From: Halobacteriales archaeon YIM A00010
GTDB taxonomy: Archaea; Halobacteriota; Halobacteria; Halobacteriales; Haloarculaceae
Assembly: GCA_025041175.1 (NCBI GenBank)
Contig: JAKCFJ010000002.1
Location: forward strand, 806,001 to 870,000
Direction of reading: 5' to 3'
DNA length: 64,000 nucleotides
The first letter of the stretch is position 1. Each line of letters opens with the position of its first letter. The notes under the pieces were generated by a model. The model was not told the DNA's origin, made no database searches, and saw nothing but the letters and a program-made list of their open reading frames with translations. The position numbers were made by a program, and so were the translations under genes. Of this stretch, positions 6,357 to 48,305 are shown piece after piece.

Positions 6357-7053
6357 GGTAGTGTTCAGATAAGCTGATTCCATGCGAATGCGAACGATCG
6401 AAGCCACTCGTTTGCAGTTTCTGCTTTGGCATTGCTGAAACAGTTTGAGAACAAAGAGGTACGTCGTTTTATTTCACGAAATATACGTTCGACGCTGTTC
6501 CGATTTCCGTGGCGTTCATATCTGACATCGAAGCCGTGTCGACGACACGCGTGTTGTAATGAATGCGAGCCATCAACGAGAAACACAGCCTCCTCAACAT
6601 CATGCTTCTCGGCGAGTGCAGTGAGAAACGATTGAGCGAGAACCGTGTTTGTCGTCGGTTCAAGCATTGTGTGAAGCAATTCGTTTGTTTCGGGATCAAC
6701 CGCAGCGTACAGCCAATACTGCTCGTCGTTCAGTCGGATCACGGTCTCGTCAACCGCAACGTGATCCGGGCTTCGTCCATTCTCGGGCTGTAGATCGGCC
6801 TTGTGAACCCAATTGTGAACGGTCGAACGAGCCCGTTCAACACCGAATATCTCAAGAATAGTAACGGTATTCGAAAGCGATAGACCAGCAAGGTGGAGCT
6901 GAATACCGAGCTTCATCAACAGTCGCGGTGTTGCTTCTCGCTCCATAAAATCCAAGTCGGTGTCGTCCAAACATCCATTGAGGCGGGCGTTTTCGGGCAT
7001 ATGACACTCAGAAAACGAACCGCCTCATACTTCATCCGTATCTGAACACCGCC
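6357..7053 (-). mobile_element. IS6-family insertion sequence, complete
   Basis: The element is bounded by imperfect 18-bp terminal inverted repeats. The left end is GGTAGTGTTCAGATAAGC at 6357-6374. The right end, read inward on the minus strand, is GGCGGTGTTCAGATACGG at 7036-7053, a 14/18 match. It encloses one transposase. The bases just outside the two ends do not form a target-site duplication. A simple insertion would have left one, so a deletion or recombination at the element is likely. A truncated Bat-type regulator directly beyond the right end fits this. Confidence 0.8.
6365..7000 (-). CDS. IS6-family transposase
   Basis: The 211-residue protein is full length for haloarchaeal IS6 transposases. 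It begins MPENARLNG and has an N-terminal helix-turn-helix part (TVTILEIFGVERARSTVHNWVHKA). The catalytic triad stretches are HVAVDETVIRLND (Asp), VFLVDGSHSL (Asp) and GNRNSVERIFREIKRR (Glu). It ends in the usual SFAFAWNQLI. All parts are intact, so the enzyme may be active, unlike the decayed relative at 47795-48305. Confidence 0.9.
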   Translation of the reverse strand: MPENARLNGCLDDTDLDFMEREATPRLLMKLGIQLHLAGLSLSNTVTILEIFGVERARSTVHNWVHKADLQPENGRSPDHVAVDETVIRLNDEQYWLYAAVDPETNELLHTMLEPTTNTVLAQSFLTALAEKHDVEEAVFLVDGSHSLQHACRRHGFDVRYERHGNRNSVERIFREIKRRTSLFSNCFSNAKAETANEWLRSFAFAWNQLI

Positions 7054-28770: not shown

Positions 28771-28773
28771 TCA

Positions 28774-28866
28774 CCAGAACGCATAGCGTTCTGGTTAGCA
28801 GCCGAGCTTCGCTCGGCGACATCGCCAAAACCGAAGGTTTTGGCTAGCAGCCGGACGTAGTCCGGC
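28774..28866. repeat. Ordered array of four 3-nt-loop hairpins
   Basis: Four perfect hairpins follow each other with 6-7 bp between them: CCAGAACGC/GCGTTCTGG (loop ATA), GCCGAGC/GCTCGGC (loop TTC), CCAAAACC/GGTTTTGG (loop GAA) and GCCGGAC/GTCCGGC (loop GTA). Hairpins 1-2 and 3-4 form two repeats of a roughly 50-bp unit. Linker TAGCA follows the first hairpin of each unit and GACA follows the second. The stems differ between units but stay paired. The array lies just before a TnpB-element right end. Confidence 0.8.
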
Positions 28867-47613: not shown

Positions 47614-47794
47614 GTGACGAAATCGAAAGAACTGAACAATAAAAAGTATTGAACGGTGTCACCAACCACCGCGCATCGTGCAGCGCCACCCAGCGGTTGC
47701 TGCGGCCCGAATCATTGACCACCCATAAGCGGTCGGTCAGTGCATTAATATGCTGTTTCACGCGGAGAACGATCGTAACCACTCATCAACAGTT

Positions 47795-48305
47795 TCTGTG
47801 TCGGCGCTGTTGAAATAGTTTGGAAAACAGAAAGTTTGTTGTTTTACCCCGTGAGAAATACGTTCGTCGCAGACACCGAATCCGTGGCGGGAGCAGGCCG
47901 TGGAGCGGAGTCACTTCATACGAGAACCACGGCGTTCTCGGGACATCGTCGACGGCGGGCCGCAGAAAGCTCGGCAACGCGACCCACGTTTGGGCTGTAG
48001 CAACTCGTTTGATTCGGGATCGATAGCGTTCACGAGACGTGGAGCGTCTCGTTCGCACACCAGAATCCGAAGGATTCTGGGGACGTTCACGAGAGCGCAG
48101 CTCTCGTGGGCCAGCCAAAACGCGAAGCGTTTTGGTGACTACGTACAGCCAGTAGCGTTCCGCACCCAGTTGTGAACGGTCGAACATATCTATTCGACAC
48201 CAAAACATATCAGTAGTAATTGTTGTATTTTAAATCTATGATTTAGCAAGGTAGAGCTACATACCGAGCATCATAAACAGTTTCGGCGTTGTTTCTCTCC
48301 AACGT
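47795..48305 (-). pseudogene. Decayed IS6-family transposase, split by a hairpin array
   Basis: Both ends align by eye with the intact IS6 transposase at 6365-7000. The piece at about 47795-47900 matches the C-terminal codons (KLFQQ..., corresponding to SNCFSNA). The piece at about 48165-48305 matches the N-terminal third (TVHNWV region and start). The middle contains many changes and the four-hairpin array at 48032-48135. No frame is open throughout. Confidence 0.65.
48032..48135. repeat. Ordered array of four hairpins inside the IS6 remnant
   Basis: Four perfect hairpins occur in a row: ACGAGACG/CGTCTCGT (loop TGGAG), CCAGAATCC/GGATTCTGG (loop GAA), CACGAGAGC/GCTCTCGTG (loop GCA) and CCAAAACGC/GCGTTTTGG (loop GAA). 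They form two copies of a 55-56-bp unit, each beginning GTTCACGAG and ending TGG plus GAC. The CCAGAA/CCAAAA hairpins match, in order and sequence style, those at 28774-28866. Confidence 0.8.

Follow-up and report, generated by a model that had tools for sequence, protein, structure and literature searches.

Bacterial REP dimers (the GTAG and CGTC families; BIMEs and REPINs) are tagged palindromes with 8-10 bp stems and the tags on the outside, which form hetero-dimers and clusters and whose intragenic copies encode 20-80 amino acids (PMC3733652). The palindromic elements of Rickettsia (RPE), about 150 bp long, are found in frame within unrelated genes, some of them housekeeping genes (PMC10969869). 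Among haloarchaea, the Haloquadratum SMR-A and PATE sequences are short, transposase-free repeats; SMR-A is frequently found inserted into other mobile elements, and how it is mobilised has been called enigmatic (PMC3119063). RepRanger (PMC12306157) covers archaea in a text without any word beginning "halo", and our search of open-licence papers turned up no previous account of REP-like or in-frame palindromes in haloarchaea.

Dimers of the REP kind and palindromic elements lying in frame are already known from bacteria; here we show an order-wide archaeal version, backed by pairs of empty and occupied genes that include the single-copy gene purL. Our starting point is an array of four hairpins (locus 2) in a 64,000-nt stretch of the genome of Halobacteriales archaeon YIM A00010, to which all simple coordinates refer and which we call the window. 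The array is one member of a family of very small paired-hairpin elements that is widespread among haloarchaea.

An insertion in a decayed IS6 transposase gene

The array occupies positions 48032-48135, with a period of about 28 nt, inside a decayed IS6-family (ISH15/ISH29-like) transposase gene on the minus strand (47779-48297; blastn to an intact copy aligns 47779-47889 and 48164-48297). Hairpins 1 (48032-48052, ACGAGACG TGGAG CGTCTCGT) and 3 (48088-48108, CACGAGAGC GCA GCTCTCGTG) are of B type; hairpins 2 (48060-48080, CCAGAATCC GAA GGATTCTGG) and 4 (48115-48135, CCAAAACGC GAA GCGTTTTGG) are of A type. Hairpins 3 and 4 together make up a doublet unit (48086-48139, plus strand) that is matched by R1, a covariance model trained on type I doublets (see below), at G000:C2:854086-854139 (35.8 bits, E = 9.4e-5). 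The array folds with z = -7.7 as DNA and -8.0 as RNA, with none of 200 shuffles equally good, and the pattern CCARAANNNNNANNNTTYTGG has six matches in the window (at most one mismatch; three places, both strands) where 0.06 are expected. Tandem Repeats Finder misses the array because its units differ from one another, and an Rfam scan of the window gave no match. The four hairpins that a preliminary description of this DNA had reported are confirmed.

That the locus 2 hairpins are an insertion into IS6, as that description also proposed, is confirmed. The whole insert, comprising the array, flanking linker and duplicated bases, spans 48029-48143, between the IS6 bases GCG (48026-48028) and TACAGCC (from 48144); it is somewhat larger than first given, and because it measures 115 nt it shifts the IS6 reading frame. 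The empty-site reference is an intact IS6 copy at 6400-7000 (minus strand), which does lack hairpins at the insert position, and nine further copies (L078-L085 and L091) are likewise empty, making ten uninterrupted copies in this genome. At the empty site GGATCRACMGCNGCG runs directly into TACAGCC, and across the uninterrupted copies the junction joins GCAGCG to TACAGCC or is a close variant of this.

Other IS6 copies are occupied. At least seven more in this genome carry arrays at the site used at locus 2, each with a hairpin set of its own that numbers 2 to about 11, and an IS6 copy of Halomicrobium urmianum holds yet another doublet there; at least two starting configurations exist among the carriers at this first site. 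A second IS6 site contains a 57-nt doublet in five copies, and the transposase frame is open through the doublet in L086 and L087. Compared with a hairpin-bearing copy, IS6 relatives on other haloarchaeal plasmids (some annotated as ISH15, some as ISH29) fall short by about 57 nt. A plasmid search with the window's neighbourhood returned distant matches only and so yielded no close strain.

Doublet anatomy and distribution

The unit of the family is a doublet of about 45-57 nt, in which two different palindromes, hairpin A and then hairpin B, are joined by a conserved linker of 5-8 nt and carry tags on the outside. The type I consensus is ATC[ACCAGAANNC nnn GNNTTCTGGT]TAGCA[GYCAGAANNC nnn GNNTTCTGRC]GAC (45-57 nt); the unit lengths 45, 51 and 57 nt are all divisible by three, and the consensus as read is open in 4 of 6 frames. 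Type II is laid out as GTCACC-hairpin-TTGGCTAAC (or similar)-hairpin-GTGAACG, its units starting with TCAC, ending with GTGA and showing an ACG duplication. Locus 2 belongs to the type II linker subfamily TCGCACA/GACGTTC, and a related but separate four-hairpin array at 28773-28866 on the plus strand (locus 1) to the type I subfamily TTAGCAG/GACATC. The two loci had been linked through a shared stem in the same order, which is uninformative since CCAGAA is the commonest stem genome-wide and the loci fall in different linker subfamilies. The locus 1 array recurs in an identical 110-nt stretch at C1:1081.8k (L245 2326-2419), probably having moved with its tnpB neighbourhood.

The tags are RTC in type I and CGTC or CGTTC in type II; among 146 ends, GTC accounts for 55 and ATC for 51 (106/146 together), the ATC share being inflated by the search pattern. 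The stems are compensatory: all three inner stem pairs are complementary at bases left free by the search in 61/66 cases here and 53/57 in GTDB, against a chance level of 1/64. Pair counting in alignment A1 also gives very high covariation, but A1 units were selected as palindromic, and we therefore prefer the free-base count. Triloops are GNA (or TNC, on the opposite strand) in 134 of the 187 hairpins here and 65 of 121 in other genomes, where 12.5% is expected by chance; the second figure is the fairer one, as the search required an A in loop position three of the anchor hairpins in the first set. DNA minihairpins closed by GNA triloops are unusually stable. The strand of the loop relative to the linker is not fixed and is nearly random, so that the loops do not demonstrate a strand-specific recogniser. 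Other paired-hairpin types, with linkers tggatac and tgatga, adjoin tnpA and tnpB (L067 2998-3044 and 13060-13106; L068 783-829; L029 1058-1101).

In the clear cases, short duplications flank the inserts: ACG (in TnpB and at L012, L005 and L018), CAG (in IS6 at L099 and L105, and in GH3), CGG (L025), TGT (in TnpA, L067), CA or longer (L037, L013, L061), and GGCG or ACGGCG (in IS6 at L042 and in Halomicrobium). Type II units are often located between ACG and CCG. As duplication length varies between 2 and 6 nt and a few events are unclear, with L147 and L061 having no clean duplication, we claim no fixed target duplication.

Arrays are mosaics of such units. Next-but-one hairpins have a common half-stem in 0 of 84 pairs, compared with about 3% of random pairs, and identical blocks of doublet length (51-63 nt) recur between unrelated flanks (L049/L050, 63 nt; L073/L034 and L227/L250, 55 nt each). 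Together these observations fit repeated insertion from a pool of doublets and not slippage; tandem duplication as the origin of the arrays is rejected by the same count of next-but-one hairpins.

Genome-wide, CCARAANNNNNANNNTTYTGG has 66 exact matches and its reversed control none. In the order sample at least one match occurs in 163/293 genomes and 64/87 genera, although single matches per genome may be due to chance, the control giving one or two in some genomes. The more specific 32-nt type I pattern ATCACCAGAA-N9-TTCTGGTTAGCAG, searched in 84,980 species (GTDB), is found in 52 stretches, all from haloarchaea (Halorubrum and Halolamina strains among them) or from records titled archaeal MAGs; it has no match in bacteria among the GTDB genomes. 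R1 has at least 133 matches in this genome (both strands counted), a lower bound as 150 of 2125 candidates were scored, and the genome holds about 70 arrays or more. The family of paired-hairpin elements proposed from two loci, with behaviour like that of mobile or expanding DNA, is upheld on a far larger scale. Applied to the phylum sample, R1 has matches in the order and in one other genus, whose doublets differ in sequence. Outside the order but in the same phylum, genomes G334 and G350 (L271-L274) contain several occurrences of a separate doublet family, TCGGAAATCnnnGATTTCCG-TATCy-CAAAAATCnnnGATTTTTG-AGGAC.

Inserts inside genes

In-frame inserts lengthen host proteins by about 16 to 75 amino acids. 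In purL, of which one copy was found in the genome, 17 additional residues (KGLRPSGSQKPEASGDS) follow FDS in frame, and 29 orthologs are without them. A GH3 glucosidase gains about 75 residues, in frame, from eight or so hairpins, while two orthologs from the same genus read ...LDGDSEGALDT with no insert, and the 19-residue insert of an acyl-CoA synthetase (AMP-binding) coincides with an exact gap in the solved homolog 8wev. A doublet also lies in frame in an arsenate-reductase-like LMWPc protein of Halobacteriales archaeon YIM A00013, an array in an NCBI-annotated GH2 gene of Halocatena salina, and further doublets in TnpB, TnpA and IS6 transposases. Some haloarchaeal proteins therefore contain insertions encoded by mobile elements, which should be borne in mind in annotation.

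Common hosts are the IS6 and tnpB genes, both of them present in many copies and non-essential. The suggestion that IS DNA is a specific target nevertheless does not hold, given the in-frame copies in non-IS genes and a codon model that places most arrays outside strong coding context, which also makes the in-frame cases a minority. When the flanks were tested with the codon model, 8/13 were in phase (about 0.035, binomial with 1/3, calculated by hand), an excess that is only suggestive because some arrays sit in one shared gene. In one tnpB lineage the TTAGCAG linker of a 3' doublet can supply the stop codon (L061 1500-1548; many among L137-L188), so that the protein terminus lies inside the element. 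A Y1 transposase (TnpA) gene at L067 3395-3461 contains an in-frame doublet of another type with TGT repeats on either side.

Proposed mobilisation and relation to known elements

Our preferred explanation, which we consider probable, is that non-autonomous paired-hairpin insertion elements have piled up to form the array, each likely moved in trans as a unit of folded DNA. On single-stranded DNA, either the lagging strand or an extruded cruciform, each of the two palindromes would form a stable minihairpin. The folded pair with its tags would be recognised by a trans-acting enzyme, which would attach a copy at a short target site (ACG, CAG, GAC or similar; for type II often between ACG and CCG) and so create a duplication of 2-3 bp or occasionally more. 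Every doublet end would restore a junction resembling a target, so that later doublets may land beside earlier ones, and mosaic arrays with a 56-nt period (approximately) would grow in this way. The type I lengths in multiples of three, with their open frames, imply that some insertions in genes would be tolerated as peptides of about 16-19 amino acids.

No mobilising gene was found among the candidates compared, namely IS605 terminal hairpins and Y1_Tnp. The IS605 terminal hairpins examined here are of the CCTCGGGG-TCAAG-CCCCGAGG type, unlike the doublets, and are not supported as their source. Of the hairpin-rich genomes 11/14 have Y1_Tnp, as do 8/14 of the hairpin-poor ones, and the three rich genomes that lack it are at least 95% complete; Y1_Tnp is thus not supported as an obligatory mobiliser. 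This genome has four Y1_Tnp genes, short IS200-like ORFs of 113-155 aa, two of them within 2 kb of a family hairpin; on present evidence its Y1 transposases are not good candidates. A bolder form of the trans-mobilisation reading, possible if somewhat doubtful, is a haloarchaeal class of folded-DNA doublets served by an enzyme unrelated to Y1/RAYT, inserting beside its own kind and having lengths and frames suited to decorating host proteins; if this were true, haloarchaeal proteins would amount to a natural peptide-insertion library. What moves the folded doublets is a testable question in culturable haloarchaea.

These data also bear on other origins. If the doublets were strictly REP elements, mobilised by an HUH tyrosine transposase (IS200/IS605-type or RAYT) that nicks at the tag, one would expect the tagged palindromes, head-to-head dimers, clusters and intragenic copies that we find and that match REP/REPIN descriptions (PMC3733652, PMC3116915), and the four Y1_Tnp genes, two of them close to family hairpins, would fit. 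Such an origin is nonetheless unlikely: Y1 is missing from the three near-complete hairpin-rich genomes and does not track hairpin number, the Y1 ORFs are short and IS200-like, the examined IS605 ends do not resemble doublets, and the short flanking duplications are unexpected for Y1 insertion. An origin in which the hairpins belong to the structure of TnpB/IS605 or IS6 itself, for instance as omega-RNA or as recognition hairpins at the termini, and owe their spread entirely to the host IS, is in our view improbable. Many species share one type I doublet at the same 3' tnpB position with TTAGCAG as a possible stop, locus 1 has its 110-nt identical copy elsewhere, and one 57-nt doublet recurs in five IS6 copies, all of which such spread would explain; but intact IS6 copies, ISH15/ISH29 relatives included, are free of hairpins, the IS605 ends here are of the TCAAG type described above, and doublets in purL, GH3, acyl-CoA synthetase and arsenate-reductase-like genes refute it as a full explanation.

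The strong RNA fold (z = -8.0) and regular 28-nt spacing could instead point to arrays that act as functional RNA or in regulation (as terminators, or as guide-RNA precursors such as TIGR or CRISPR-like arrays) and whose placement in IS6 is incidental. This is very improbable, because the variable part is palindromic and would make a poor guide, positions vary among IS6 copies and among genomes, several copies lie in frame within coding sequence, and Rfam offers no match. Spontaneous quasi-palindromes or slippage products without dedicated mobility would account for perfect stems of changing sequence, through template-switch correction, and for the nearly random loop strand. Conserved linkers and outer tags across genera, identical doublets at unrelated sites and, for slippage, the 0/84 match of next-but-one units make this origin very improbable as well.

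The doublets can be set beside the known systems. They share with bacterial REP dimers the tagged palindromes, stem lengths, outside tags, hetero-dimers, clusters and intragenic copies, as well as termini able to supply a TAG stop (PMC3733652). A short foot-tagged palindrome occurs at high copy (RTC at 106/146 ends; 66 pattern and at least 133 model matches), and head-to-head doublets are the unit of dispersal, as seen in the doublet consensus and the identical 51-63 nt blocks. They differ in having GNA triloops where REP loops are 4-5 nt and linkers of 5-8 nt where those of REP are mostly 20-100 bp, and in arrays that avoid identical neighbours; haloarchaea are absent from the phyla, all bacterial, named in the REP survey (PMC3733652). 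We do not file the doublets as REPINs because the RAYT/Y1 association was tested and is lacking, with Y1_Tnp missing from three hairpin-rich genomes and IS605 ends that differ. With RPE they share palindromic repeats in frame in unrelated genes (here purL, GH3, AMP-binding, LMWPc, GH2, TnpB, TnpA and IS6), a likeness drawn by description, RPE being about 150 bp and known from Rickettsia (PMC10969869) whereas the doublets are 45-57 nt and range across an archaeal order. Among haloarchaeal elements the closest described are the SMR and PATE repeats of Haloquadratum, from which, going by the published descriptions, the doublets seem distinct: SMR-A is about 110 bp long, has terminal inverted repeats, makes no target duplication and strongly targets PATE/IS605 palindromes, and PATEs resemble IS605 ends (PMC3119063). 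The near-terminal palindromes without target duplication that characterise IS200/IS605 and PATE elements are not what we find, the doublets having short duplications at clear sites and differing from the terminal hairpins. These doublets are best read as a haloarchaeal counterpart to two bacterial systems, the head-to-head REP dimers/REPINs and the palindromic elements of Rickettsia.
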